From: Antedon mediterranea
Lineage: Eukaryota > Echinodermata > Crinoidea > Comatulida > Antedonidae
Length of the DNA: 64,000 nt
Direction of reading: 5' to 3'
NCBI RefSeq assembly: GCF_964355755.1
Contig: NC_092670.1
Location: 32,785,795-32,849,794 of the forward strand
Within the stretch, counting starts at the first letter, position 1, and each line of letters opens with the position of its first letter. Positions 7,661-62,842 of this stretch are shown piece by piece. The notes beneath the pieces are model-generated. The model was not told the origin of the DNA, made no database searches, and saw nothing but the letters and a program-made list of their open reading frames with translations. A program made the position numbers and the translations under genes.

Positions 7661-9286
7661 ATGTTATGCAGAAATAACACTGAAATTCTACGAAAATGTA
7701 CATTAATTTATATAATAATAATTTGGGTAAGTACTTGAATTGTAACATTATTATAGGTTGGGAATTAAAAATAACAGTGTTGGCGGTGGGCAACAAATAG
7801 ACATGTCTCGTCTATTTACCTATTTGTTAGGCCTATTCGATTCAGTACTCTACTGCGAATCACTGACATGACGGTACATGCAATAGCATTACTTTTCTTA
7901 TTTCGGATGATAAATTTACATAATTACTCAGAAATTTTTAAATTATATTATTTCTTTTTTTTGATACTTTACGTAACATTCAAGTTATACACAAAATTAG
8001 GTATTTTTCTGTTTTGTTCAGTTATAAAAGTTATATTTTTCCCCATATATTATTTATTATTATTACAATGATTAGTGTCTTATTATTAATTTAGATTATT
8101 TTGTAGACTTTATATAATGATCGTATTGTTTTTTTTTTAACATCATTACATTTTTTTTCCCTCAATATTTTCATATTTCAAAAGATATGAATTATAAAAA
8201 TGTTAATATTTTCCTTTTTCAGTATTTTTTAAACATTATTTAAAAGTTATAAATATGTTTTCAGAATTAATAATTGTATTTTATCGATATGTTTTTAATA
8301 GAACATTCTTGCAGTTCAGCGAAGTTACCTAGCGGATGGTAGGAATATCAGCGCATTATAAAAAACAATTTACCTTTACAATTATAATATTGACTGTACT
8401 TACATATATACAATATACCCAACGTTAAGATACATTATATCATAATTATTACCAATTGTATTTTATCGATATTTTTTAATAGACAATTCTTGCAGTTCAT
8501 CGAAGTTACCTAGCGGATGGTAGAAATATCAGCGAATGCCCAGTCAACCAGACACTAGTGAAAGCTTCAGACGGACACCGATGTGTCACGCTTTTAGTAA
8601 AAAATAAGTGTTTCAGATATAGTAAAAATATGACAAATACAGTTAATAATTTATCTAACCAAACGAAAGCTACTATAGAAAAAATACATTATGGTATTTT
8701 GGCTCATTTCGCATTTGAAGGCAATACATTGGCCAGCTCAGTTGACACAGAAATCTACGGTGCCATGAGCGGGTCTGGAATAATTACCTTCGCACATGGA
8801 TTTCTTAACCTAGGAATTGTTTTTACAGGCAATCAGAGAATGATGTTTGCATTGGAGGATTTGGATTTTGAATTTTCTGTCAGTTTTTGGTTTCATCGTG
8901 TTGGTGATGATGGAAATCAAGTTATCATAAACAATGGGTGTGGTAGTGCTCACTGGCAAATAATATCATATTCAACAAATATGGTTATGGTTGTATTTAC
9001 CGATGATATATTATCTGGAACTGTCCTTGGTTTTGTTAAAGAACTCCAAGAATGGCATCATGTACTTATGACGTGTAATGGCTTTTTGATTTCCGTGTAC
9101 ATAGACGGCGTAATGGCAGGTGATGTTTCTCTTAATCTTTCAGTCATGAGTTCTGATATTTTTGTTGGTCAGACTAGTTATGAATGTTCCGATTCCAGTG
9201 ATCCATTTAATGGTATGATAGATGAATTGTTAATATTTAATAGCTCTATACCCATAAACGTAATTCAAACCATATATCAAAACTAA
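7661..9286 (+). CDS. Secreted protein with Cys module and LamG-like jellyroll (gene 1)
   Basis: Two exons, 7661-7726 (22 codons) and 8483-9286, joined in phase 0 by a GTAAGT donor and a TTTAATAG acceptor, giving about 289 aa. Exon 1 reads MLCRNNTEILRKCTLIYIII..., a hydrophobic signal-peptide-like start. Next comes a short module, SECPVNQTLVKASDGHRCV... followed by KNKCFRYSKN, with three cysteines, then several N-glycosylation sequons. From about residue 85 a LamG/concanavalin-like jellyroll follows: FEFSVSFWFHRV, VIINNGCG, EWHHVLM, VYIDG, IFVGQ, FNGMIDELLIFN, ending with the last strand at the C-terminus. Such domains bind carbohydrate or protein ligands outside the cell. The ligand here is unknown. 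A poly(A) signal candidate (AATAAA) lies near 9771. A decayed paralogue lies 8 kb downstream. No membrane anchor is seen. Confidence 0.75.
8273..8355 (+). repeat. Partial duplication of the exon 2 start
   Basis: About 83 bp nearly identical to 8453-8535. It covers the branch/acceptor region and the first codons of exon 2 (CTAGCGGATGGTAG..AATATCAGCG). It supplies a second acceptor that would lead into a stop, so use of this copy would truncate the protein. Confidence 0.75.
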
Positions 9287-16039: not shown

Positions 16040-18781
16040 ATGTTATGCAAAAATAGTACTGAAATTCTACGAAAATGTACGTTAATTTATATAACAATAA
16101 TTTGGCTAAGTACTTGCATTGTCACATTATCATTTAAAAATAAAATTAAGAATGATAGTTTTGGGCAACCAACATACATGTTTTGTCTATTTATATTTGT
16201 TATTCGACTCAGTGCTCTCCTGCAAAATACATATAACTTTACACAATATTTAAGATATCCACATATGGTATACCATTAAATAGGTATATTTCTGTTTTGT
16301 TCCTTCAATGTAGGTCTACATCTATAATCATAATAATCATTATTTTATTATTACAATGATAATAATAATATAGTCTTTTCTGACATGTTTTTAAAAGGTA
16401 ATTAAAAATAATAACTTTCAATTTTGAAATAATCATGGATAACGTTCCTTTGATTTAGGATATTCTTGTAACTCAAAGATGTTACTTAGCGGATTGTAGA
16501 AATGTCAGCGCATGCCCAGTCAACCAGACACTAGTGAAAGCTTCAGACGGATACCGATGTGTCACGCTTTTAGTACAAAATAAGTGTTTTAGATATAGTA
16601 AAAATATGACAACCACAGTTAACAATGTATCCTACCAAACGACTGAAGAAAATTATACAATATTCACAGAAAGTGGCGCTAACATCACACAAAGAGTCAC
16701 AGAGCAAGTAATAGACAGAGATACTCTGACATTTTTTGAAGAATCCACAACTATTAATAATTTACGAATGACGACAGAATTTGATGAACTATCAACCGCC
16801 GTTGTTATCAACATAACAGAACATACAAACGGGGGCGTTGAGAGCAGAAAATGATGTGACAGAACATACAAATGGGGTGTTGACAGAAGATAATATAAAA
16901 GAACATATAAATGGGGTGTTAACAGAAGAGAATGTAACAGAACATACAACCGGAGTGTTGACAGAAAAAAGTGTAACAGAACATACATACGGGGTGTTGA
17001 CAGGAGAAATTGTAACAAAAAATACACATGGAGTGTTGACAGAAGAGATGTTAATATAACATACAAATGGAGTGTTGCCAGAAGAAAGTGTAACAGAAAA
17101 TACAACCGGAGTGTTTACAGAAGAAAATGTAACACAACATACACATGGAGTGTTGACAGAAAAGACTGTAACAGAACATACAAATGGAGTATGGACAGAA
17201 GAAAGTGCAACAAAACATACAAATGGAGTGTTGACAGAAGAAAGTGTAACAAAACATACAAATGGAGTGTTGCCAGAAGAAAGTGTAACAGAACATACAA
17301 ATGGAGTGTTGACAGAAGAAAGTGTAACAAAACATACAAATGGAGTGTTGACAGAAGAAAGTGTAACAAAACATATAAATGGAGTGTTGCCAGAAGAAAG
17401 TGTAACAGAACATACAACCGGAGTGTTGACAGAAAAAAATGTAACAGAACATGCAAATGGAGTGTTGATAGAAGAAAGTGTAACAGAACATACACATGGA
17501 GTGTTGACAGAAGAAAGTGCAACAAAACATACAAATGGAGTGTTGACAGAAGAAAGTGTAACAAAACATACAAATGGAGTGTTGACAGAAAAGATTGTAA
17601 CACATCATACGCATGGAGTGTTGACAGAAGAAAATGTAACAGAACATACAAATGGAGTGTTGACAGAAAAGATTGTAACACATTATACGCATGGAGTTTT
17701 GACAGAAGAAAGTGTAACAGAACATACAACCGGATTGTGGACAGAAAAAAGTGTAACAGAACATACAAACGGAGGTTTGACAGAAAAGATTGTTACAGAA
17801 CATACAAAGGGAGTGTTGACCGAGGAGGATGTACAAGAAAACAGGATTACTGACGAGAACGTATTAGACAACACAAATATATTGTTTGAAGAACATTTAG
17901 CGGAAGTCACGATTGTAGTGACTAAAGCTAATGTTGGAGAAGGCACGAGTGAAGATAATTTATCAGATCCCATGGTCGGTGGAATTGAAGAGAATCCAGC
18001 AGCAGAAGAAGTAAATATTTTAGCTTATTACGACTTTGAACATAACATACAAGACACTTCAGGTAATGGTCACGATGGTAATATGCTTGGCACTAACATA
18101 AACTATACCCCTGCAATTCAAGGAGTTGGTATTCAGTTTACTGGTATTCAATGACTAGTGGTACCTTCACTGTCTGGTCTGGGCGAAATAGACAAGTTTA
18201 CTGTGAGTGTGTGGTTTGTAAGAACAGGTGGAATGCACACACAAGTTATAATTAATAATGGGTGTGGTCCTAATCGTTGGAAAATTACAACACAAATTAA
18301 CGATGATTATAAAATCGTTGTCATTGGACATCTTAATGAGCACGTGATTTGCTCTATTGTTGGTGGAAATGTAAACGAATGGCATCATGCTGTAATGGCT
18401 TACAACGGCACTGACTTTTCATTTTATCTAAACGGAAATTCATCTAATAACTGCGACAGCTGCTGCTTCTACAACGCACGTATTACGTTTAAAATGTCAA
18501 TAGGTCAATTTGAAAATGGCTGTGCACCGTCTTCATTTCAAGGGGTGATAGATGAACTAATGCTTTTCAATACTTATTTATCACGAAACCAAATGTATAT
18601 TCTTTATTATTTTGAGCGCGTAAGTGCATTAACGCTATCACAAATTATAACGTCACTGGCAGCAATTACAGAAGATCAAATCCTGAATGGAGGGGTCCTT
18701 ACGGCATACGACGATGAAAGCATATCTTTGTTTAGGTCTAATGATTATGGTTATGATGATGATTCAAGTTATGTTACTTAG
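16040..18781 (+). pseudogene. LamG-like paralogue 2 with 26-unit repeat stalk, decayed
   Basis: Exon 1 (16040-16105) matches gene 1, MLCKNSTEILRKCTLIYI..., but its donor is CTAAGT instead of GTAAGT. Exon 2 would start at 16459 after TTTAG and reads DILVTQRCYLADCRNVSACP, then the same Cys module. It continues into a threonine/glutamate-rich stalk of 13-residue repeats and a LamG-like jellyroll (ILAYYDFEHN, FTVSVWFVRT, VIINNGCGPNRWKI, EWHHAVMAYNG, FKMSIGQ, FQGVIDELMLFN), ending with a short acidic tail. Breaks: an extra G in a G5 run near 16830 shifts the frame, TAA at 17057-17059 replaces a repeat Glu codon, and TGA at 18152-18154 lies inside LamG. All three segments otherwise stay in one frame. 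Together with the lost donor this indicates a fairly young pseudogene, unless sequence errors are involved. Confidence 0.75.
16813..17830 (+). repeat. 39-bp coding minisatellite, ~26 units
   Basis: Unit encodes VTEHTNGVLTEES with variants (VTKHTNG, VTEHTTG, VTHHTHG, LTEK, LPEE). All units are 13 codons except the first (14 after frame correction). Internal higher-order similarity (ESVTKHTNG pairs) suggests recent unequal exchange. The unit lacks stops in several frames on both strands, which creates long spurious ORFs. Confidence 0.9.
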
Positions 18782-30966: not shown

Positions 30967-31801
30967 TTATGTTAAACCAAAACAAATTACCTTCGTGACG
31001 TTTCGCCGACAATCTGTCAGCTGCTTCAGACTAATGCCTGGGTTGGAATGGTCTGGTTTTTTGTAAGTGACGCTGAACAGCGCCACCAGCCGTCTGGTTG
31101 GTATTGACGGTAGAGCGTCTCCGCTGGCCCCCCCTCCTGCTTCAACTTTTTCCAGCAAACTATCATATGTATGTGGGAGGTCATACCCACCAATGTCTCT
31201 GTTGATATTATGTGGTCTTTTTCTTATGCAGATAGATTCTTTTATCTTTCTTTTGTCTGTCTGTGCTTCTTTTTCAATAACTCTCGCATTCCAATTTGGA
31301 ATATGGTCATTCCCTATAGCGTGGTCAGTTATGGCTGACTTATGTAAAACCTTGGACGAAGAATTTCTATTTGCACGTGTTCTAACTACTTGTTTGTGTG
31401 TTGATACGTCTTTTTTATGTTCCCCAATTCTTGTATTCAGTGCCCTTCCGGTCTTTCCTATATATACTTTCTCACAGTTTAGACAGTTCACTTCGTATAT
31501 AACCCCGCACATGTCTTCCGTTTTTATTATATCTTTTGGGTGGACCAGTCCATTCTTTAATTTATTACTTGGAATGAAGAAAGTGTTCACTTTGTGCTTA
31601 GCAAAAGTGCGTCGAATCTTTTCAGAAATTCCGTGTATGTATGGGATACCTATGTGAGCTTTCATCTTCTCCATTTCCTTTCTTTGGCGTTCTTCTGGTT
31701 TGTTTTTTTGACTTTTGTTCTTTTCTCTTGTTTACGACTCTGTCTACTGACAATTTTGGATAGTTACAAATTTTCAATGCTTTTCTAATGTGTTCCAACT
31801 C
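30967..31801 (-). pseudogene. Penelope-like GIY-YIG endonuclease region (partial)
   Basis: An open frame from 31674 to 30967 encodes 235 aa. IPYIHGISEKIRR leads into the GIY-YIG core CGVIYEVNCLNCEKVYIGKT, with GRALNTRIGEHKKD (catalytic Arg region), then ITDHAIGNDHIPNW and KESICIRKRPHNINRDIGGY, the family's usual Glu-containing segment. The CxxC in NCLNCE is typical of Penelope endonucleases. Upstream residues (ELEHIRKALKICNYPKLSVD) lie in another frame, separated by a 1-nt shift in an A-run near 31715. The reverse transcriptase part is missing. Dead copy. Confidence 0.85.
30997..31029 (-). ncRNA. Hammerhead-like motif in Penelope tail
   Basis: Minus strand: CTGAAGC, stem II GCTGAC-AGATT-GTCGGC, GAAACGTC. 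The last A of the CTGANGA core is C, and stem III is only A-C/G-T, as in Penelope-type hammerheads. Activity doubtful. Confidence 0.55.
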
Positions 31802-38758: not shown

Positions 38759-39715
38759 TCAATGCGTTCTTCCGTCGTCACTTATTTCTTTTTCTGGTAA
38801 AATAAAAGCGTTTTCATTTTGATCTTTTAATTTCACAAATGTGGCATGAGAATCTACAATATCGCAATCAAGTCGTAATCGTTCGTTGTATAACACATCG
38901 TAAAATGGCTGAACAAATTTAACAACTTCTCGAACATCATCTGGTAAAGAATCCATATCAACTCTCGATCTTTTAGATTTTTGCCTAATTCCATCACTAT
39001 TCATCGCATCAGAATACCAACCCATGATTTTATCAGCAATTAAATTAGAATACGCTACGTGCCATTTCATTTTTTCTTCTGGTTCCCAGTGCAACATCTC
39101 TTCTCGATATGTAAGTCCTACAGCCTTGCAGTATTTACGCATCATCTGCTTAGGATCGGCAAGAAGATCGTCTGCGTCCAGTATAAGAGGTGCCTCACCA
39201 GTAGTATCGCGTAAGTGAATAAAAAGATCATGAAGTTCTTCGTACATATAACCAGGTGGCATTGCAAAAGACACGCTTCGCTTCCATATAAGTCCCATCC
39301 CGGGTAGCGGTCCACAATTAATTCGTTCCTTCCAAGATTTCATAACTTTAGATGGGTCTCGTATGAGGAATGTATGTTTATATCCTTTTGGAATAGCATC
39401 CCAGTTACCATCAATAGCGTAAGCAAAGTCTTTACAAAACACCACATCTTTATCGACGTATTCTCTCTCTAATTGTTCTTTTATCCATTGGTATGAATAA
39501 TTTTCCTCACATCCTATAAGAAAGCTTATTAGTTTATTTGGTTGATACTTACGCTCAGGACCAAAATGCCAAGCAGTCATAAACGGTTCATTAAATATTT
39601 CACATTTATCTAGAGTGTGTATAGAGCGAAGGAATGCCGTTGATAGCGCTCGTGGAGTTGACCACAGCATTACACGAGTTTGAGAACGACCTGTCTCGTG
39701 CCTAGGCATATCCAT
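38759..39715 (-). CDS. Sulfotransferase-like protein, single exon
   Basis: 318 aa uninterrupted, starting MDMPRHETGRSQTRVMLWST. A second Met at residue 3 could also start. The N-terminal strand-loop MLWSTPRALSTAFLRS is the PAPS 5'-phosphosulfate-loop type, and FLIRDPSKVMKSW about 110 residues later is the 3'-phosphate-binding motif of the sulfotransferase fold. EIFNEPFMTAW between them is typical of this subgroup, known in animals, plants and bacteria, some members of which carry a misleading 'aminotransferase-like' name. No signal peptide or membrane segment, so probably cytosolic, unlike Golgi carbohydrate sulfotransferases. Substrate unknown. Intron-less, which may be original or reflect retrocopying. 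No frame damage. Confidence 0.75.
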   Translation of the reverse strand: MDMPRHETGRSQTRVMLWSTPRALSTAFLRSIHTLDKCEIFNEPFMTAWHFGPERKYQPNKLISFLIGCEENYSYQWIKEQLEREYVDKDVVFCKDFAYAIDGNWDAIPKGYKHTFLIRDPSKVMKSWKERINCGPLPGMGLIWKRSVSFAMPPGYMYEELHDLFIHLRDTTGEAPLILDADDLLADPKQMMRKYCKAVGLTYREEMLHWEPEEKMKWHVAYSNLIADKIMGWYSDAMNSDGIRQKSKRSRVDMDSLPDDVREVVKFVQPFYDVLYNERLRLDCDIVDSHATFVKLKDQNENAFILPEKEISDDGRTH

Positions 39716-40440
39716 TGCAGCCTACACTATCCGTCGATATCTTGGCTAACACCCCTCCGGATACTATGCTTGCTTTCTTTCAAATGACGAATTTTTTACA
39801 CTGGGCATTCAACGAAGCACAAAAGACTTGTCAAATAGGCGATTCACGCTTACCTAATTTCAATAAATGCATAGCACTCTAACTTGTTTGCTAAAATGCT
39901 TTTGCTCTGCCTATGAAATCAACGCGATGAAAATTAAATCTTGACAAAATCGATATAGGTCTTTCCCGCAAATTGTATCAGACGATATAATTATATCTGA
40001 ATATTGATGTGTCGTATAAAGCGGATTAACCGTGTGATTCGATCATTAATACCAGCAACTTTTGACTACAACATTCTATACGTGTTATTCATTTTAAACG
40101 TCTAAAATACGTAAGCTAATGTTTATACACTAATCCTTTTCGATGTTAGTACTGTATATACCTCCCGTTGAGACGTCTCATGTTAAAACTCTCCGATTAT
40201 GAACCCGTAGCTGGAATGAATCTAATATGATACTGTACAGGCTTAACCTGCTTAAGATATGGTCCGCGAAAAACTCAACACAATACAGAATTATACATCT
40301 ACATTAACGGCTGTGTATATTATGTATAGGCTGTCACAGGTTTATACAATTCCCAACCCAAATTAAATGTGTTCCAATACTAATATAATACACTAAACAA
40401 CTGAAATTTGATTCCTTCTTGGTTTTAACATAATATGCAT
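39716..40440. other. Gene-free 5' flank of the sulfotransferase-like gene
   Basis: No coding frame. It must hold the promoter of the minus-strand gene, but I see no clear TATA element at a fixed distance. Confidence 0.4.
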
Positions 40441-49642: not shown

Positions 49643-51076
49643 ATGGCCCTGATATTGAACATCGTTGGAATATTATGGCTTATGATGCTAACTGGAAAAA
49701 CTGTAGGGCTAAGGTGTATGGTGTCCAAGTCTGATGTTCAAGTTGGAGACGTTGTTAATTTTTATTGCATAACGGATTTTATAGTTTCTTCGACGCCGAC
49801 AAAATTGATTTTGAAGTACGGCAAAGCTTTAGAACAACAACGGATACAGACATCCAGTAATGTTTCTCTAACGACAACAATAACGGCGGAGGATAATTAC
49901 CGACCGTTTGTATGTAAGGAAAAAGATGGCCAGAAAACTTTAGCTAACTGTAACCTTATTCCTTTTGCCATTCCAACTACAGTCACCATTCGAAGTCACC
50001 AGACTGACTTGTCAGAAGGCGATACTGCGGCGTATACATGTAACGCAGAAGCACAGCCACCTGCTGTTTCAAGTGATTATATTTGGTACTTCAAAGGGGC
50101 TCCTGTTACATCTGGTAACCCATCCAGGATACAAATCGCACAAGCAGGTAGAAAAATAAAAATCTTCGACATAACACGTTCTGACAACAACTCGGAAGTT
50201 AAATGTGTAGTCATCAACTCTGTAGGAATCAATGGTACTGACACACTGAAATTAAAAGTACAAAAACCACTTAAAAATAAAGATGTGCTGACTACACCAA
50301 CTGTACTGAAAAACAATAGCTTGGTTACTAAGATATCTGTACAATCTACTAATAAACCTGATATCACTTATACAACATCTATACATGCTACTGATGAGTC
50401 AGACATGTTTGTTACCGATGAAACGTTTTCGACAATACTGGCATTGGAACAGGCTGACAGTGACACAAGTAGTTTCTCGAACGTCAAACTTTGGTATTAT
50501 AATGTCATTGAAGGAACGGCTATTGGAGGCTTCGTGCTCTTAGTCATGTTGATAATGTTTACTAGTTGCCTGATTGGGCTAGTCTTACGACGAAAATCTA
50601 AAGGTAATACAGAATGGGAAGAAGAACAAGAAAGAGAAGTGAGAAAACTCAAACGTTTATCTATAATTCCTGACGAAACGCGAGTCGGAATGACGGAGAA
50701 CGACGCGTACCTATCACCAGCTAAAACAAATAATTCTAATACTGTTTCCTACATGAACCAAACTACATCAGCTTATCATTTTCCACCAACTCCTCCTGTA
50801 ACGCATGTATCACATCGTTCTGCTTCTTTACCATTAACAACATTATCAACGCGTTACGATGATCCGTCAGCACAAGATTATGTAAACACCATTCCGCGTC
50901 ATCACGACGACGCCGGTTATGTAAACGCACCAGGAACCAGTGATGTATCAAATATATTTAATTTTGACCAAATGCAGGTTAATGCATACTTAAATGAGGA
51001 ATATAATCGACTAAGTGAACTTTATGAGAATGATCCATCGTTAAGTGATATATTCAAACTAGATACCACAGCTTGA
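49643..51076 (+). CDS. Ig-domain receptor with five YxN tail motifs (receptor A)
   Basis: 477 aa from ATG at 49643. An upstream in-frame ATG (49538) would put extra residues ahead of the signal peptide, so I prefer 49643. Signal peptide about 1-20 (MALILNIVGILWLMMLTG). First Ig-like domain about 22-110 with cysteines 25, 42, 91 and 103 and AEDNYRPFVCKE. Second about 113-206 with C133, W148 and C188. Then a Thr/Ser-rich stem, a membrane segment about 292-315 followed by RRKSK, and a 160-residue cytoplasmic tail. Tyrosines in YxN context: Y370 (YMNQ), Y413 (YVNT), Y426 (YVNA), Y449 (YLNE), Y461 (YEND). PPTPP at 381-385 may bind SH3 domains. YxN is the Grb2 SH2 consensus once phosphorylated (established knowledge). 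Its use here is inference. Single coding exon, no damage, paralogous to receptor B at 61799. Confidence 0.8.
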   Translation: MALILNIVGILWLMMLTGKTVGLRCMVSKSDVQVGDVVNFYCITDFIVSSTPTKLILKYGKALEQQRIQTSSNVSLTTTITAEDNYRPFVCKEKDGQKTLANCNLIPFAIPTTVTIRSHQTDLSEGDTAAYTCNAEAQPPAVSSDYIWYFKGAPVTSGNPSRIQIAQAGRKIKIFDITRSDNNSEVKCVVINSVGINGTDTLKLKVQKPLKNKDVLTTPTVLKNNSLVTKISVQSTNKPDITYTTSIHATDESDMFVTDETFSTILALEQADSDTSSFSNVKLWYYNVIEGTAIGGFVLLVMLIMFTSCLIGLVLRRKSKGNTEWEEEQEREVRKLKRLSIIPDETRVGMTENDAYLSPAKTNNSNTVSYMNQTTSAYHFPPTPPVTHVSHRSASLPLTTLSTRYDDPSAQDYVNTIPRHHDDAGYVNAPGTSDVSNIFNFDQMQVNAYLNEEYNRLSELYENDPSLSDIFKLDTTA

Positions 51077-54000
51077 GATTGACAGATCTATTATAAATGA
51101 CATTGAGGCTTACGTAATTATGTATTATTACCAAATCATAATATAAATGTATCTATCAAGTAAATATCATTACAGTACAGTAGGCGGTATATCCATGTAA
51201 TATCCATATGGAAATTTATTAAAACACCTAAAAACGTATGTTTTTAATTTTTTAAAAAGATAAACTGAACTGTTAGGCCTACATAATTAGTACATCTTTT
51301 TCATTTGATTTTTCTCAATGAATAAATTCACATAAACATTTTATCAAACGTTTAAAAATTGATACTTTAACAACTTAAGTAATCTGCTAAGACCAACAAT
51401 ATGTGGACATATAGACATTTGAGAACTCTATTTTAGCTTTAAGACTTTCGAATTATGCCTAATCAATCTTTAATTTAAAAAAGAAAATGTTTTATATAAA
51501 TGAAAAACATAATGACATGATAATTATTATTACATTATAGACTGAACGTCTACATTTAATTTCAATTAAATTCAATTTTTTTAAAAACATTCCGAATAAA
51601 TAATATAGTGGAATTTGTTATTATAATTGATATGTATTATAATGTAAATAAAATATATATTATAAAACCATTATCGTTCTATTTTATAAAAAAAAATATA
51701 TCGTATTTTTGAAAAGTAATAATAAAAAAAAACAATATTCATTATGCTGGCTTTGTTTTTATTTTAGAAAAAACGTATGTAAGGACATTGGCCATTTCTC
51801 CTATTTTTAAAGCTTTCCTCCATTTCTGTTGGGTGTTACGTCACATTTCTATCATAATCTCTATGGACTATTTAAATGATGATAATAATAATAATAATGG
51901 TTAGATAAAAAGTGCAGTACTATAATATTAATAGAAAGTTTCATAAAGCCATGCTTTATTAAGAACATGAATATTTTGACCGCCTTGTACTTGTATATAG
52001 TTGTCAAATTTGTGTTGCTTTTATGCTGTAGGCCTAAGTAGGGCTGGAGGGATCCACCACTACTCGTGACTGGCCATTGTTTCTTCTCAGGTTTATGTTA
52101 TTGATTTTGTAAAAGAATAAAATATGCCAATTTCAAAACTAAAATTTGCTAGTCTGTAATTAAAACATACATAGCATTACAAACATATACATAGCATTAC
52201 AAACATAATTTAGTTAGGCCTATACCCGAGTTTTCTAAATTTGAATTCATTTAAAAAAAACAACAAATAACGCATGAACAAAGAATAATTAAGCTAGCTT
52301 GCTCAATGAATTACTTAAAACAGATATGACATTACGACTCCATTATTAACTGTGGTATGGAAGTATTTTTACCGGTAGTATTAACCGTGATAGGGAAATT
52401 GAACTTTAAAAACCTCAATAAAACTCCGGAAATGATCTATAGGTGTTCCGTAGTTAACATTAAAGATGGGTGTTATTTTTTTATGGACTGAGTACATATA
52501 AATAGACGTATAATTGTCTATGGCGTAGTCGTGGAAGTTATCACAACGCGGCTTGCTTTGTAGGAATACAAATAACATATTAGCCTTTGAAATTTCTTCG
52601 CTGTATTTTATAATTATGTTTAGTCTAAATTTGTGGGAAATAGTCTAAAACTATATTCATTCAGTCGGTGGACTTCCTTACGAATGAGTCAGAAGCATGG
52701 TTCACCAAAGGCCAATATTAACTTTTATGAATCCTAATACGTATCTGTTATATCCTATCGAATTTCCTTTTACTTTTCTAGCATTTTATTTTATTTCGTT
52801 AACATATGAGGCTTTGTTTAGAACATTTGCTTTTTTTTTACTAAAACAAAATGTCTATTACTTACCAGTCAATACCATAAATGAATTAGCAGTTGTAGAT
52901 CTACTGCCATTGTTAAAAAAAACACACGGGGAGAGACATACGATTCAAGTGTTGTGGAACCATACTAAACCATTCGGCCGAAGAAAACTTTGTCATCCTT
53001 TTTTAACGGAAAAAAAATATCGCTAAAATATTTCAAAATGTACTCATGGCAATGGAAGACCTGTCCAATGCATGCGGCATATTATAATTTATTTTGTATA
53101 TGGTTTTACATGGTTGTTTAAATACTTAAAAAAAACTTTACTCAACTAGCCAATCTTTTGTGACATAATCGCAGTTCAATATTCTCCCCCGCCTCCATTG
53201 GCTAAATTGGTAGTAGTACGGCAGGCCAATAATGCTTTCAGAAACTGCTATAATTCTGGTAACAGAATAAAAACACATTCTGTCTTTTTTTTTACATACA
53301 ATCAACATTTAGATCTTTTTACGGTTTAGGCTACATACCGTGGATACACTTACGAGATTTGATAAAAAAAAATTGTAAATTCGCCCCAAAGAAACTATCA
53401 TTCTAGCATTGAACTTAAATAAAGTATGCCTCCTTAAATCCATGATACATTTACTATTACCCCTTCGAATCACTGTTTTACATGTACAGTTTGTCGTCTG
53501 GTGCATGAGTTCTCCTTATTGTTTTATTACTTATGGTGTACGCAATGAATAAAACAGACGGGATACAATCATATAGAGGTGAAACAGAGTAACAGGAAAT
53601 CTATAAATCTAGTTTAAAAATCTAGCGGATCAGTACAAACATTCAAGAGACACACATCATTATGTGAAATAACTCACTAACTAAGTGCAGAACATGTACC
53701 CTCAACATAAGATAATATGTTAAAATACTTTTTTTACGTAACAGGACATTTGTGGATAAGTTATTGTTAAATGCAAATTAAAAACAAGACTCAGAAAGTC
53801 AAAACAGTTAAGAGTGTATTATTCTACATTCATACTTGTTTAATTTAACGGAACAGCAGACGGTAAAATTATGGAATACACAAAATTGAACGGCGCCTTT
53901 TTTGTTCTGTGAATGTATCTTTGCACAGTTAAACCTGTTCGAAAAAAAACCCGCTTGCAGAAGGAGGCGACCGCTTACGAGAGATGTCAATGGATGGGTA

Positions 54001-55440
54001 CAAAACAATTAAGTAAAAATGATGGTGAAGTTGTTACTGTACGTTAGAGTACGTAACAGCTATCCCTTTCACTTTCCATTATGTTCAACATTAACAGTTT
54101 AATAATGAAGTTTTGTACGTTGGAAATATAAATAATCACTATCAACTATCAACCATATTTGTGTATTTGTTATTGTATAAAGGTGATATATAGTTCAAAA
54201 TATTCTGCTATTTATTATGAACCTAGCTTATTGTTGATCAATTCTTTATTAATTCAAAAGCGAATGATTCATATCTGTAGTTATACATAACTAGGTCTTT
54301 TCAATAAAATATTATGGCTGACATTGACCTTACGTATTTCTCTGTGATCTATCTTAAAGCAATTGGTATTTGACCAGGTAGTATATATTATAGTATTTCT
54401 ATAATAATAATAATATATATTGGCGATATTTTCTACCCTTGAACTAAAACAATGCAGGCAATTAGGCATGAGAAAAAAAACACATTTTAATTTCCATTAA
54501 AATAGGTCACAATTGAGAGTATTTGATGAAAGTCAAGGCCCTGAATTAGACAACGACTTCTCTAAGAAGCAAAACAGATAAACAAAATAATATAATAAAT
54601 TAAATAAATAAATTTAAAAAAATCAGTTCTTTCTCATGTAACACATAAAGCAAAAACTGATTTACCTACATGATTTCATCCGATCAAGAACTTTAATTCA
54701 ACCACATAAAAGATGCATCTAACTACAAGTACTGTTTAATATCTTTAGACAAACATGCTTTATTATTTATAATACTAGTACCAGAGTGTAATAATCGTTA
54801 TTGAGTTTATATTCGTTTTCTGCATAAAGAAATGAACTGAAAAAGCACAATCAGCATTATATAAAAGACTGCTTATCTTTATAGAGATAATTAAATTAGG
54901 GTTTTTCAATCAATCATTGTCAAGTGCATTGTCTTTTCTCCATAACATGATCTAGTTAGGTACGTTATTCCTACCACATCACCTTGATGGTTCCGATCGT
55001 TAAAATAAACGACTATAAAAATGATCATGAACTTCTTTACAAATTCCCCGATGGAGATCATCGGAAACATTCATTGTTAGACATGAGTCTACGAATGTGG
55101 GAATTTTCCACCTTATTTAATAGTACGTGAGTTAAACTAATCATGTTTGTCTACTTTTTCAATACAATGTACTTTTTTACCTTGGAAATTGATTGTTTTT
55201 AAAATTTATTTTACTACAAAAAGTACAATACCGGAACAAATAGCAGACATGTCCATTGTGATATGCGTGTTACTAAACGGATTGGTTAGGTACTGAGTAT
55301 AGGCCTATTTATCATTAACTCACTTTCAGGTACTTTTAGGATTCTTCAAATCTGTTCTTCTACCGACTTTTATTAAACATTTTTTACAATGGAGAGTCTA
55401 CCATAGGCTTAATAAAAATCCGAAATAAATTAAAGAACAT
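51077..55440. other. Gene-free stretch
   Basis: Starts with the 3' UTR of receptor A (AATAAA near 51319). The frame at 52697-53026 has no family signature. No repeats stand out except short A/T runs. Confidence 0.5.
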
Positions 55441-55453
55441 GCAGATCATACAA

Positions 55454-55456
<3 letters not shown>

Positions 55457-55530
<74 letters not shown>
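55457..55530. repeat. (TA)n microsatellite, ~37 units
   Basis: Uninterrupted AT dinucleotides. The open frame through it (YIYI repeats) is spurious. Confidence 0.95.
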
Positions 55531-55533
<3 letters not shown>

Positions 55534-55659
55534 AAACAGACACACTTTCTTTGTTAATAGTAACATTTGGATATTAACATTTTTTAAATTTGATTGAAAC
55601 ATAATGTAAATATTTTTCTGAATTTATTACATTATTGAAATATATATTTATACTTGGCG

Positions 55660-57030
55660 ACCTCTTCAGTCAAAGAATGGTCTCCCAGAGGGCCCAGTTA
55701 TGATCAGTGGCTGTGATGTACTAATACACCGGGGTAACCCTCTACTCGTCTCGAAAGATGTACTAGGTTCTTTAAAGTGCACACGAGCTAGATGTGAGCA
55801 ACCATACTTTTACTAGACTATGGTATAAAAATCATTTTTAACTTGCTATGTTAACTAAAAGTCAAGTTATAAACTAAAATACGTTTAAAATGGCGGCCAT
55901 CTTGGATTTCAACATGGCGGCTCAAATAGAATATTTACAAATTTAATAAAAATATATTTGGAATTCTCAGTATCACAAACATAGGTATAGAAACCATTTT
56001 TAACTTGTTATGTTAATTAAAAGTCAAGTTATAAGCCAAAATACGTTTAAAATGGCGGCCATCTTAGATTTCAAAATGGCGGCTGAAATAGAATATTTGC
56101 AACTTTAATAACAATATATTTGGAATCTTCAGTATCACAAACATAGGTATAGAAACCATTTTTAACTTGCTATGTCACTTAAAAGTCAAGTTATAAGCCA
56201 ACATACGTTTAAATGGCGGCCATCTTGGATTTCAACATGGCGGCTGAAATAGAATATTTGCAACTTTAATAACAATATATTTGGAATCTTCAGTATCACA
56301 AACATAGGTATAGAAACCATTTTTAACTTGATATGTCACTTAAAAGTCAAGTTATAAGCCAACATACGTTTAAAATGGCGGCCATCTTGGATTTCAACAT
56401 GGCGACTGAAATAGAATATTTGCAACTTTAATAACAATATATTTGGAATCTTCAGTATCACAAACATAGGTATAGAAATCATTTTTAACTTGCTATGTCA
56501 CTTAAAAGTCAAGTTATAACCCAAAATACGTTTAAAATGGCGGCCATCTTGGATTTCAACATGGCGGCTGAAATAGAATTATTACAACTTTAATAACAAT
56601 ATATTTGGAATCCTCAGTATCACAAACATGGGTATAGACACAATTTTTAACTTGCTAAGTCACTTAAAAGTCAAGTTATAAGCCAAAATAAATTTGAAAT
56701 GGCGGCCATTTTGTTTTTCACATTTAAGGGTGAAGATCTAAAAATTGAGCCGGGTAAACAGCAGATTTGAATTCAGCACCCAAAAATTACCCTAAAACAC
56801 ATGTTTTTTCGCTTTTAACACGAAATGCCTACAGCATCTTATTAAAGTGGAAATATAACTATCTGGACTAGTCTACACTGGACCTACGGTTTATAGTCCT
56901 TATCCGAGAAGACTCGTTCTACCACCAGAACCATAGAGTGAGTGAGCCTCGAACCCTTGCCAATGTTATGGCTACGTAAATACGGTTCCACTGTCTTAAC
57001 CGCTCGGCCACTCACTCACTCAATGATTAT
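55660..57030 (-). mobile_element. SINE-C copy 1, split by a satellite array
   Basis: Reading minus strand from 57030: tRNA Ser/Leu-like head (GTGGCCGAGCGGTTAAGACA ... GGGTTCGAGGCTCACTC), body GAGTCTTCTCGGATAAG, GTAGGTCCAGTGTA. Then a 1,079-bp interruption, then CATCTAGCTCGTGTGCACTT, TAAAGAACCTAGTACATC and GAGACGAGTAG. SINE-C at 60421 is the uninterrupted reference. Confidence 0.8.
55796..56874 (+). repeat. Insert in SINE-C carrying six 162-bp repeats
   Basis: The TGGCGGCCATCTTGGATTTC landmark recurs at 55891, 56053, 56214, 56376, 56538 and 56700 (period 161-162). Units carry ATGGCGGCTGAAATAGAAT, ATATATTTGGAATCTTCAG and CACTTAAAAGTCAAGTTATA. A ~150-bp non-repeated end follows (56723-56874). 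No clear inverted ends or target duplication at the borders. Confidence 0.85.
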
Positions 57031-58635
57031 TATTATTTGATGATGATGATAATGATGATGATGATAGCAAATCTACAACATATTGGAATGTTACACTATT
57101 CATTCTCTAAATAGCACCAGTTTTAGACATATTTACCGAACAGTTCTCTATTGATGTCCGAAGTACTTCCACATTACATATTTTACAAACTTGGGTTTAA
57201 CTGTAATATTACATAGTGGATTTAATGAGCCATCCTCTAGAGCAATATAATCTAACTATTTATAAATATCGTAAAAGCAGATGTTAAGGATTCATAAAGA
57301 TATAATAGTTTTATCAACACAGCTGTTAGCCTAGGCCAACCTGCACTTAAGATTTCCCAACGGTGTGAATGAGTATCTCCGCAAAGAAACCACATAATCT
57401 CGCAGGAAATGGAGCATATTGACTGATCCCCTTACTGAATTAACTTTGGCAGCAGACAGCATTCTTAAATATGTAATAATGTTATAATGTTAGTGGTCTC
57501 AACGTGTTTACACACAATCGAGTAAATGCTGCACCTCACTGTATTTGAATATTAAATTACTGACGAAAATTATGCTTTCTGTTATTTTCAGTTACCATCC
57601 ACTGAAAAAACAGTTATACCTAACGGAGAAATTCTATGCTAAGTTTGATTCTGTGTCCGTTATAATCTATATACCTCGTTCTATAAAATAAAACCTGTAC
57701 TACTTGTATTGCCAGTAGCAATGATAGTGTTGCGGGGAATTGGCTGTGAAAATTCTTAACCAGCAAAATATTTAGCATTTTCTCAAACTGATGGTTATTA
57801 TGTATACCCACTGCTAAAGGAGGAATTAATAATTTCAGATAGCTGTTGCATATTGTTCAGACTATTAACATAAATAGATTAATTTCCGAATTGAAAATGT
57901 AATGTATTGTCCTTTTATCTTACAATTAATTAATTATTGATAAAGTTAAAAATTAAAATAGTAAATGAATAAAAACAGGTTTTTAGTAAATGCAGTTAAT
58001 TTTCCGTTAAATAGAAATGACAAGCATGTATGTACGCTTAAAGTTGTTGTTATAGGTGGAAGTAATTTCCTTGCAATAGTGCATAAAAGCGTATTGAAAA
58101 AATATCTGCTTGATCAACGCTAAATTTATTTTAATTGTATAGGTGTATTTTAAATTGTGTAACACAGTAATACAAATTGATTACATTTTTTATATATTCT
58201 GTATATTTTATATTCATTTTTAACTTGTATTAAGTTGTATATTACAGGGGTTGCGGACACAAATGTGTTATGGCGCTCTGTTGCTGTCGCAACCCCTGGA
58301 CCGCTTGTTGTCGAATAAAGAAATGAAATGAAATGAAATGTACCAAAACAATGCAAATAATTATAACAACCACCTATTTCCTTTCTTTATTTTGTGTATC
58401 CTATTTCATCGATGAATATTTTACTAAGATAATTGAGGGCGTATTCGACTATTTTAAAAGAGTGTGCTCTTCAACTTTGGTAAACCTAATAAAAACTGTG
58501 CATGCATTGTTATGAATTTATTAAACTTGCATTCGTAAATAAATAATGTAACTGTGATTCCATGACAGCCACTGTTAGAATAGTACAGTATCTAATGGAA
58601 CAATGTTGAGCTAATATTATTAAATGGTATATTAT
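57031..58635. other. Gene-free stretch
   Basis: (GAT)n-like run near 57040-57065. GGTTGCGGACACAAATGTGT...GTCGCAACCCCTG near 58250-58300 forms a weak inverted pair. No gene. Confidence 0.5.
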
Positions 58636-58639
58636 GTAG

Positions 58640-59260
58640 GCCTACACTCCGTCACTCACCAGACGCCTGTGTCCAGGGGACTATTTGACACGTGTGCATA
58701 GGCCAACACAAAACAACCAAAATAAAACTTAAGCTGTAATTTGTTAAACAAATTGTGTCATATTGTAAATTATATAAATTAATAATTATACAAATATTAT
58801 CAATAAATGTAAACATTCAATTAAATTATTGTTGAGCTTATATTATTAAATGGTTCATTATGTACACTTCGTCACCCACCTCCACACGCCTGTGTCCAGG
58901 GGACTATTTGACATGTATGCATAGGCAAACATAAAACAAACAATATAAAACTTAAGCTGTAATGAGTTAAACAAATTGTGTCATATTGTAAATTATATAA
59001 ATTAATAATTATACAAATATTATCAATAAATGTAAATATTCAATTAAATTATTGTTGAGCTTATATTATTAAATGGTTCATTATGACACTTCGTCACCCA
59101 CTTCCACACGCCTGTGTCCAGGGGACTATTTGACATGTATGCATAGGCAAACATAAAACAAACAATATAAAACTTAAGCTGTAATGTATTAAACTAATTG
59201 TGTGTTATTGTAAATTATATAAATTAGAATTATACAAATAGTTTAAATTAATAAATGAAA
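58640..59260 (+). repeat. Three tandem copies, 212-233 bp period
   Basis: CGCCTGTGTCCAGGGGACTA recurs, with CTATTTGAC at 58681, 58914 and 59126. Shared AACTTAAGCTGTAAT and TATTATTAAATGGT blocks fill each unit. Non-coding. Confidence 0.85.
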
Positions 59261-60420
59261 ACATTCAATTCAATTATTGCTCCCTCTATTGTAAAGTTCT
59301 AAAAATTGAATAACACCGTTTTAATATTAACGCCCTCTTTAGTGGAGCACGAGTTAACATACGTTTTACAGAAACTCAATCAAACTCTATTAAAGTATGA
59401 ACAGTACTAACAAAACATCTCTGATATTGATATTATCATTTTTGGCAGAAATTAATTGTGCTGTACAAAACAGCATTAATAGGCCTATAAACAAAAACAG
59501 AACACGCACTCTAAAATTAATATGATCGTTAGTAGCATTAATATATCGAAAATGTTACTGTAGAGATACAGTCATGTGTAAGACTTCATTCGCCATAATC
59601 TTGTGACATTCATTATACGCCTAATTTGAATACGTGATTCTAAAATCGCCCTTACGAGGCCTATTTTAGTGATAGTACAAACATGGTGAAAATAAACCCT
59701 GGTACGAATAGGTATGTCAGAACAATAAGGATATGATCCGTACAATGTACAATCGTCTAGCCATCGTACTACCGAAACACTTGTTAACAATCGAATACAT
59801 GTCACAACATTTGATTATAAATGATATACTTTTTTCCAGACGTTTCCAAAAAATAAAATGTAAAGATGACTGATCAATATTCTCTATACATTTTTCATTA
59901 ATTTTAGGAACTGGATACATTTACAGTTGTTCTGACTTGTGTATTGTTGTTTTTTTTTGTGGTAATTTTGTGTCATGTGCTGCCGTTTGGTTTCTGTGTT
60001 ATTTCTTTTGAAATTATGTTTGTTTTCCTGTCTATTTCTGGTTAAACATGTCGGCGTTTAGTTGTGTGGGTTGTCTACCATTTTCTCCATTAAAACATTA
60101 CTATTCGTCATTCATGATTAAGCACTAACGGGGGTAAAAACAATTTTGAATGTCATTTTTTTTTCAGTATTATTTTGAATTATCAAATAAGAATATTTTG
60201 GCAAGTACAGAACTGTAGGTACTGTTACCTAATTATAATAATTACATTAATTATTATTGTTATAATTAGCTATAGTATATATTTCTTTTGATGTTTTTAT
60301 TTTTGTTTATTCATTGCCAAATCACAATTTGTTTCACTTATTTTTGTTTTTAATGATTTATCCAATTTTCCAAACAAAATTAACCATATAAATGGCAACG
60401 CACAGAATATAAATGAACAG
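59261..60420. other. Gene-free stretch
   Basis: No recognised gene or repeat. Confidence 0.5.
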
Positions 60421-60770
60421 AGGTTAGTGAGTGTGGCCGAGCGTTAAGACAGTGGAACCGTAATCCATAGCCATAACATCGGCAAGGTTTCGAGGCTCAC
60501 TCGCTCCATGGTTCTGGTGGTATAACAAGTCTTCTCGGATAAGATATAAACCGTAGGTCCAGTGTACATCTGGCTCATGTGCACTTTAAAGAACCTAGTA
60601 CATCTTCCGAGACGAGTAGGGGGTTACCCCGGTGTACTAGTTCATACACACACACTGTCGTGGACAGACGTAATGGCGCCGTAGTTGGCTGCCGATGACA
60701 CGATGTGACCCTTATATTGGGAGAAGAATGTTGTTTGATCACTTGTTGCTGAAATTGGCGCTTTACAAAT
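60421..60770 (+). mobile_element. SINE-C copy 2 (uninterrupted)
   Basis: Head GTGTGGCCGAGCGTTAAGAC with B box GGTTTCGAGGC, type II tRNA (Ser/Leu) origin. The body is as in copy 1, then CCCCGGTGTACTAG and a tail ending in AT-rich sequence. Confidence 0.8.
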
Positions 60771-61798
60771 TCGTATATATTATATTATATTATTATTATT
60801 ATAAAATACTAAACTAATTAAATAATGTTTCAATTATTTATTATCATTTATTGCTAAAATATTCAACTCATGATTCCTTAACTTAAAGCGAACAAATGAT
60901 AACAATGTAATGTAATAAAATCTATTTTACTCTTGCATGCTAAAATAAATATTGAATTCATAGTTTTTCTTAATATATTTATTTATAAATAGACGGTCCT
61001 TGTCACTGACAGACACTGATTACAAGGAATTTATTTTTTCCCCACAGATAGGCATACTGCATATAGACCTACTCTATAGGCCCTACTGCATGGGTCTCAC
61101 TGTATAGGCCTATTACAAATAAAGCTGATCATTGTATCTCGTATCGGTATACCACAAACGGATATGGAGCATTATTAAGAAAACATCGTGTACTTGTATA
61201 CAATCTATTCAGAACGTTGTACAATGTGTTACAAGACCTGCAAATGAGGTCAATTATTAGAAGGTCGTAAATAATAATCACACATATTTAAGAGCAATTA
61301 GGTCAAATGATATATCAATACGATGACACTAATAATATAATGGAATAGCATTGTTTAAGTAAACTTATGTCATTAACCTTATAAGAAGAATATTTAAAAA
61401 CATGTTTATTATAATTTAGGCTTCTGTAGGCATTTGTTTGTCGTATCAATTTTATCAAAAGTAAAATTTAAAAAATATTCCTATATTTAAGTTAGCTTTA
61501 AGTTTGTGATTGGTCAACTCACTACCCTGTGTTGCGTCCACATAAGAACCATTATTTTCTCTTTTTTTTAAATTTTAATTTATATTTGATTTATATATTT
61601 ATAAATGATTGTAGATATTATTTTACTTTAATACCCCTTAATGCGTTTTGAATACCCGGAAGTAAACGTATGGATTACGACGGATACAGGAAGCAATTCA
61701 AAAACGTACTTCCAGACCAAGTCTGTAACCGCTCTCTATAATAATACTGTGTTCAATTTGTTTAAAATTCCAGGCTTTACACAGGCTACACACAAACA
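60771..61798. other. Gene-free 5' flank of receptor B
   Basis: A likely splice acceptor, TTTAAAATTCCAG, ends at about 61772, 26 bp before the start codon. This suggests an intron in the 5' UTR. Confidence 0.5.
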
Positions 61799-62842
61799 AT
61801 GTACTCAATACTGCAAAATACGTGTATTGTACTTTTTCTATCAACACTGGCCCACTGTAAGTTACATTGTTCAAAGGATCCAGATAATCTAATGTTAGGA
61901 GACTTTGTTACTTTAACTTGTAAGAAAGATATCATTACCGAAAACGATTCTTTTCGGTTGGTGTGGAAATCACTAAAAACACAGGCGATTAATACCGATA
62001 GTTATGTCCTTTCAACGGGACAGACAGCCAAATTGGTCGCTAAGGTAAAACTTACCGAAGAAGATAATTACCAGAAGTTCACATGTAAAGAAAGGCGGGA
62101 TCAACAGACAGCAGATATGTGTGAGGTAACACCGTTGAAAATTGCGTCAGAGGTAATGGTTACGGCTTCACTACAGCCCACGTATCAAACAGCAAACGTA
62201 ACTTTTTCTTGTGAAGCAAAAATGTTGCCAATTGTTTCAAGATATTCGTGGAGTTTTGATGGAAACTCGATTCAAGATGGTGGACGTTTTCAAATATTAA
62301 ATGGTGGAAAGACACTTATTGTTCAGAATGTATTGCTTGATGACCACAAAAAGATAGCAACCTGCACAAGCTTTAATCGACTTGGTCTAAGTAAGTCAGG
62401 CTCAAATATTGTTATGATAGATCCTGAAATGATTCCCCCTTCAATGATAAAATCTGACAAAGACTTATTCATCCTTGGTATTGGAGCTGGTTTTTCAGCG
62501 ATGGCTATCCTTGTCGTTATATTCTGCATCGTTGCTGCAATTGTAAAGAAAAATGCCAGAAAGAATTCTAAACCTCTTACTGATTCCGATGAAGATGAAG
62601 AAACAGCATGTAAGGCAATCGATGGCCATACGAGGTCAAAGTGCAATCCATATGCGTCTAGTGATCTAGGAGTTAGTGGGCCTACATCGATGTCTGAAAG
62701 ATGTCAGGAGAAAGAACGCCAACTTGACCTCGAGGCAGAAAGTGACCAAGAAAGACGCTATTTTACGTTAGAAAAACCAGATGCTGAGAGTTTCAGTAAG
62801 CCTGAATCATTATATGCTTCAATCGAAGAAGAACGTTTATAA
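61799..62842 (+). CDS. Ig-domain receptor with ITIM-like tail motif (receptor B)
   Basis: 347 aa, ATG at 61799. Longer upstream frames belong to another reading frame. Signal peptide about 1-20 (MYSILQNTCIVLFLSTLAHC). First Ig-like domain about 21-115, cysteines 24, 41, 96, 108, with LTEEDNYQKFTCKERRDQQT closely matching receptor A. Second about 118-205 with C138, W151, C189. Membrane segment about 224-249, then basic KKNARKNSK and an acidic DSDEDEE stretch. The tail has Y285, Y321 (YFTL) and Y339 in SLYASI, which meets the ITIM pattern S-x-Y-x-x-I. ITIMs recruit SHP phosphatases in vertebrates and probably inhibit. That this holds here is inference. Coding region is a single exon. AATAAA near 62982. 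Confidence 0.8.
   Translation: MYSILQNTCIVLFLSTLAHCKLHCSKDPDNLMLGDFVTLTCKKDIITENDSFRLVWKSLKTQAINTDSYVLSTGQTAKLVAKVKLTEEDNYQKFTCKERRDQQTADMCEVTPLKIASEVMVTASLQPTYQTANVTFSCEAKMLPIVSRYSWSFDGNSIQDGGRFQILNGGKTLIVQNVLLDDHKKIATCTSFNRLGLSKSGSNIVMIDPEMIPPSMIKSDKDLFILGIGAGFSAMAILVVIFCIVAAIVKKNARKNSKPLTDSDEDEETACKAIDGHTRSKCNPYASSDLGVSGPTSMSERCQEKERQLDLEAESDQERRYFTLEKPDAESFSKPESLYASIEEERL

Follow-up and report, generated by a model that had tools for sequence, protein, structure and literature searches.

The nearest parallels to the receptors described here are the paired receptors of vertebrates (reviewed in PMC3533184) and the FcoR proteins of Botryllus, in a review that also cites Hydractinia (PMC12065747). 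Like the vertebrate systems (SIRP, Siglec, KIR, LILR/PIR, CEACAM and FcR-like), the Antedon mediterranea family has clustered Ig genes in which similar ectodomains sit on differing tails, an inhibitory-type tail that bears a pair of tyrosine motifs towards its C-terminus, some members that are soluble or truncated, and fast ectodomain evolution. Unlike them, it consists of single-exon genes with a V-C2-I domain order and an extra cysteine pair on the A and G strands, its tails other than the class I tail (see below) have neither an ITAM nor a charged transmembrane residue, and it comprises far more genes in another phylum. Orthology to SIRP, Siglec or KIR was not found; the best matches were generic adhesion Ig proteins and CEACAM/CD22, at low identity.

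Among invertebrates, the FcoR proteins are Ig receptors whose tails are of the ITIM, hemITAM or YxxI/L/V kind, and FcoR alleles differ in tail type (PMC12065747). They combine a V-Ig domain, a sushi domain and two C2-Ig domains, are encoded at one histocompatibility locus and in some cases switch tails by alternative splicing, whereas the Antedon coding regions are single-exon, the tails differ between genes, and the family members scanned with Pfam had three Ig domains and no sushi match. The Alr proteins of Hydractinia are alike by description, as clustered invertebrate Ig receptors with tyrosine-based tails, but belong to a single allorecognition complex in a cnidarian. Nectin, nectin-like, Kirrel and NCAM proteins share the V-C2-I order and include the nearest folds, but show no comparable lineage expansion or swapping of tails.

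Paired inhibitory/activating Ig receptors are best known in vertebrates, with related allorecognition cases in a tunicate and a cnidarian, and the present family lies on a different deuterostome branch. Within the echinoderms, a survey of purple sea urchin immune genes reportedly described IgTM, a family of membrane Ig proteins. The IgTM genes could be relatives of the Antedon family, of which we found no published description in the searchable literature.

Two receptor genes in the window

The window, which is the whole 64,000-nucleotide stretch of Antedon DNA that was analysed, contains two genes on the + strand, A and B, that are separated by 10.7 kb and have frames free of stops and introns. 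In each, a single exon encodes a type I receptor: a signal peptide and two Ig domains precede a single transmembrane segment, and a cytoplasmic tail follows it. Gene A (positions 49,643-51,076; 477 aa) was delimited by its ATG-to-stop open frame, its Ig matches and an AlphaFold2 model. Its hydrophobic N-terminus reads as a signal peptide (aa 1-21; 49,643-49,705) and is followed by a first Ig domain (49,706-49,972), which corresponds to domain 2 (D2) of three-Ig members by family alignment and by the model, and which holds a canonical cysteine pair (aa 42 and 91) and an extra one (aa 25 and 103). The second Ig domain (49,973-50,260) is of the I-set type, with an I-set match above the Pfam cut-off, an Ig_3 match just under it (1.5e-6) and agreement from the model. 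Hydropathy places the transmembrane segment at about aa 291-315 (50,513-50,587), and the tail behind it (50,588-51,073) carries the motifs YMN, YVN, YVN, YLN and YEN, which are of the Grb2 type, together with PPTPP.

Gene B (61,799-62,842; 347 aa) was delimited by its open frame and Ig matches, and its best match in the genome is A. Its first Ig domain (61,859-62,131), placed by family alignment, has the extra cysteine pair and the sequence EEDNYQKFTCKE; the second (62,132-62,416) was recognized by alignment and by Pfam Ig_3 at 3.7e-7, above the cut-off. A transmembrane segment at about aa 224-250 (62,468-62,548; from hydropathy) leads into a tail (62,549-62,839) that contains the ITIM-like motif SLYASI close to its C-terminus (62,807-62,824). 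Neither receptor has a V-set domain, and both begin at D2. The modelled ectodomain of A (D2-D3) adopts an Ig fold at a pLDDT of 90, and its top PDB matches in Foldseek were nectin-like 4, neuroplastin, CD22 and JAM.

Most of what the original prediction said about the two genes themselves has stood. It had described paralogous receptors about 11 kb apart with two Ig-like domains each, and the frames are intact, A and B are reciprocal best genome matches (7e-14 and 6e-14), and the Ig assignment is supported by Pfam matches in the second domain of both proteins and by the ectodomain model of A. The extra cysteine pair of domain 1 and the signature EDNY..F.CKE, proposed as common to the two, occupy identical alignment columns in A and B, but they are not specific to this pair, since the cysteines and the motif D..FxC mark the whole family. 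The five YxN motifs predicted in the tail of A, alongside PPTPP, exceed the 0.8 expected from shuffling (p = 0.0003). The SLYASI of B is present as described, but as a single motif it is at chance level (p = 0.08, shuffling).

A family of single-exon Ig receptors

Paralogues beyond the window proved to be numerous. We merged four single-protein searches of the assembly (354 Mb, 18 contigs), in which the ectodomains of A and B found 121 and 105 places and those of two other members found 107 and 150. The merged family has at least 255 loci, 226 of them with a stop-free frame of 300 aa or more; these counts are taken from open frames in one assembly, in which some near-identical copies could be assembly duplicates. 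All of the intact loci that were read from end to end have one coding exon each, so that each receptor would be easy to clone and test. A and B thus belong to a very large group of related surface receptors, and the four queries found no further member within the window.

Much of the family lies in clusters. The largest, at C7 3.27-3.77 Mb, has 83 loci, of which 19 are broken or short, followed by 53 loci at C3 18.70-18.91 Mb, 22 at C3 11.73-11.90 Mb, 16 at C11 15.84-16.12 Mb and 15 at C11 5.48-5.60 Mb. The members of the two C3 arrays are very uniform in length and have short tails of another type (VYYETREG / VYFEPRDH). In one C11 gene (L010; C11:5581790-5585191), the tail contains about five copies of a 17-residue unit, SSDQTISGEIVYSGLxT, and the ITIM-like motif is kept in four of them, which suggests motif amplification.

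Most members have three Ig domains, mostly in the order V-C2-I. D1 matched V-set in 26 of the 27 members scanned with Pfam, and D2 and D3 matched I-set and C2-set_2, D3 being the I-set domain. D2 is C2-like, and both the extra pair of cysteines and the motif D..FxC lie in it. Three of its positions do not vary in alignments of 26 and of 27 divergent members: the extra G-strand cysteine, the D and the canonical F-strand cysteine. The canonical B- and F-strand cysteines and the tryptophan are likewise invariant, and Pfam, AlphaFold2 and Foldseek agree in placing the family in the immunoglobulin superfamily. A three-Ig member was modelled with a pLDDT of 86, and the solved folds nearest to this model and to that of A are the ectodomains of nectin-like proteins, NCAM, DIP, sidekick, CEACAM and CD22, all at low identity.

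Tails and ectodomains in the C7 array

The idea behind the original prediction, contrasting tails on one type of ectodomain as in vertebrate paired receptors, fits the C7 array better than it fits A and B themselves (see below). Tails were read in about 80 genes of the family, including 48 from the C7 array (3.27-3.66 Mb). Three classes recur in the array: (i) class I tails have several YxxP motifs and then two C-terminal ITIM/ITSM-like motifs, EGLTYA(D/E)IEF...LDYATVQI, about 20-25 residues apart; (ii) class II tails are acidic with repeats of an EYDYV-type motif; and (iii) class III tails are shorter and contain YDYI, YDYA and EYIEV. A few genes of the array are cut off after the membrane or lack a transmembrane segment. 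The class I tail probably resembles the tails of SIRPalpha and Siglecs. One tail sequence was also compared with the PDB and had no match there.

Ectodomain identity in the array hardly depends on the class of tail. Over D2-D3, genes of the same class are on average 67% (class I), 69% (class II) and 66% (class III) identical, and genes of different classes 67% (I-II), 64% (I-III) and 64% (II-III), with single cross-class pairs reaching 84%; identity is 91% between one secreted member and a class II member. Accounting for the tails on the D2-D3 tree of the array takes 10 changes for class III, 8 for class II and 7 for class I, of which 8, 6 and 5 are forced by well-supported branches alone, and a single clade with support 98/97 holds tails of all three classes. 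Some grouping by class remains on the tree, because recent copies are expected to share tails. The classes are intermingled along the C7 chromosome, and each of two transmembrane types occurs with both class I and class II tails. One cluster therefore combines highly similar ectodomains with different tails, as in the vertebrate systems.

In several same-class pairs (L062/L088, L023/L085 and L070/L075), dS is 0.32-0.36 in the ectodomain and 0.10-0.11 in the tail. This is the pattern that exchange of tails would give, though it is seen only in a minority of pairs. The two parts of the genes also differ in constraint: median dN/dS is about 0.8 in D2-D3, and the median values for tails give about 0.44 (class I) and 0.57 (class II). 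In D1, the loops equivalent to CDR1-3 have a dN/dS of 1.33 against 0.81 elsewhere in the domain; 7 of 109 shifted controls were as high, and this modest excess is suggestive only.

These observations bear on the possibility that the family serves adhesion or the wiring of tissues, as Dpr/DIP, Dscam, nectin or NCAM do, and has no immune role, its tail diversity tuning adhesion signalling. The closest folds (NCAM, nectin-like, DIP and sidekick) and a D2 motif like that in the C2-set_2 domain of nectin/Kirrel-type proteins speak for this, but recognition arms races fit better with tandem arrays of this size and their pseudogenes, with the secreted variants and the swapping of tails, and with a dN/dS that is close to 0.8 for the ectodomain and exceeds 1 in the V-domain loops. 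We therefore regard a purely adhesive family as unlikely. The reading we favour, and hold to be rather probable, is that the family consists of recognition receptors whose tail sets the signal, and that duplication and tail exchange on C7 have produced a system like that of paired receptors. The C7 array would then be a natural series for following how inhibitory and activating receptors arise from one another, and it lets one ask whether SHP-based tails arise repeatedly.

Tail motifs and signalling

Motif excess was computed over 40 independent tails. ITIM-like motifs numbered 36 against 17.9 +/- 3.9 expected, and tandem ITIM-like motifs 8 against 1.1. The most enriched motif was Yxx[LVI] (93 against 53 expected); YxN (37 against 23.6 +/- 4.5) and YxxP (37 against 19.7) were also in excess. 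The class I motif EGL.YA(D/E)(I/L) is found again, together with the second motif, at two further places, C7:27-33 kb and C6:8.0 Mb; the genes there have ectodomains distant from those of the C7 array.

Yxx[LVI] motifs double as endocytic sorting signals. The receptors might therefore serve scavenging or uptake, with tyrosine motifs that are mainly endocytic YxxPhi and tail differences that reflect neutral turnover. We consider this decidedly unlikely: Yxx[LVI] is indeed the motif in greatest excess, and the ITIM consensus overlaps it, but the double motif of class I has SHP-like spacing and is kept at loci on two chromosomes with ectodomains distant from the array, and the tails are under more constraint than the ectodomains. 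A function in allorecognition or gamete recognition, as thought for Botryllus FcoR and Hydractinia Alr, seems more doubtful still. ITIM and hemITAM tails do occur on known Ig receptors from the allorecognition loci of invertebrates (PMC12065747), but here there are hundreds of scattered loci in place of one complex, and crinoids are solitary.

Returning to recognition receptors with signalling tails, the inhibitory side is the better defined. By sequence, the C7 array has members with ITIMs, and the genome has a candidate partner, a gene at C3:14.10 Mb that encodes a pair of SH2 domains and, behind them, a tyrosine phosphatase domain (PTP), and whose exons we read as SHP. Vertebrate tandem ITIM tails recruit SHP, and by analogy the product of this gene would bind class I tails; the assignment of class I as an SHP-type inhibitory tail is well supported by sequence. 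Elsewhere in the genome, many tandem protein tyrosine phosphatase exons occur at C5:7.65-8.08, 12.02-12.13 and 25.20-25.33 Mb and at C6:7.17-7.23, 26.29-26.39 and 30.46-30.51 Mb. These are an apparent array expansion, and the phosphatases could oppose receptors with tyrosine tails.

The activating side has fared less well, and with it the suggestion that the tails of such receptors signal in opposite directions. There was no excess of ITAMs in the 40 independent tails (3 against 1.2 expected), and no charged transmembrane residue precedes the class II and III tails of the C7 array. We rejected ITAM-type activation for lack of an ITAM excess and, since no charged transmembrane residue is present, also coupling to an adaptor through one. 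The C7 array has no activating member recognizable by either feature; a different activating motif is possible.

In the mechanism that we propose, the ectodomain would bind a ligand, perhaps one shared between members of an array, and a Src-type kinase would phosphorylate the tyrosines of the tail, which would set the outcome. A class I tail would recruit the tandem-SH2 phosphatase SHP and inhibit. Class II and III tails, and the YxN tail of A, would recruit SH2 adaptors of the Grb2, Crk/Nck or Src type, leading to activation, scaffolding or uptake, and a member that lacks the transmembrane segment would be a soluble form. Gene duplication and exchange of tails on C7 would repeatedly have set one type of ectodomain on differing tails, and the family may have an immune role. 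A wider proposal is more tentative and in our judgement falls a little short of an even chance. It holds that an echinoderm independently evolved a germline-encoded paired-receptor system from single-exon Ig genes that number in the hundreds, and that recombination along the array re-assorts their V-type recognition ectodomains with inhibitory tails that recruit SHP, with signalling tails of other kinds and with secreted forms.

A and B stand apart from the C7 array in this respect. Their ectodomains are related, as the paired reading demands, but they are only 28% identical and are not the highly similar ectodomains seen on C7. In a D2-D3 tree of 56 members, A and B form one clade (support 99/93) with L011, a two-Ig gene at C7:25.07 Mb, and the path from A to B is 3.2 changes per column, over long branches. 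B may be nearer to L011 than to A, although A and B as sisters are not rejected (AU p = 0.21). Because the identity is low, the path is long and the ITIM of B is at chance level, we read the two genes, on the available sequences, as old and divergent family members with unrelated tails. That A and B by themselves make up a matched activating/inhibitory pair for one ligand is the least credible of the explanations, for all that they are adjacent, reciprocal best matches with the same two-Ig form and differing tails, given this distance, the possible nearer kin of B on C7 and the motif in B that chance would explain.

The window contains several other features. Two Laminin_G_3 domain exons lie at 8,483-9,286 and 18,155-18,781 (both +), and exons at 8,483, 16,459 and 33,129 have the common motif CPxxQTxVxxSxxxRCV; together, the Laminin_G_3/CPxxQT exons look like a family arranged in tandem, whose proteins would be secreted or exposed at the surface. 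The stretch at 17,060-18,154 (+) repeats a unit of about 13 residues (TEHTNGVLTEESV) in tandem; it looks coding, and several of its reading frames stay open over long distances. On the - strand, a GIY-YIG endonuclease-like frame (30,967-31,731) is probably the remnant of a Penelope-like retroelement, and an intact sulfotransferase-like frame (Sulfotransfer_5) occupies 38,762-39,721. Outside the window, the Hox genes point to Ambulacraria and away from protostomes; with contig sizes that imply about 11 chromosomes (n = 11 in crinoids, about 20 or more in other echinoderms and acorn worms), a crinoid is the likeliest host. The Hox cluster is ordered, lies at C2:7.90-8.21 Mb and has homeodomains read as Hox9/10 and Hox11/13 types.
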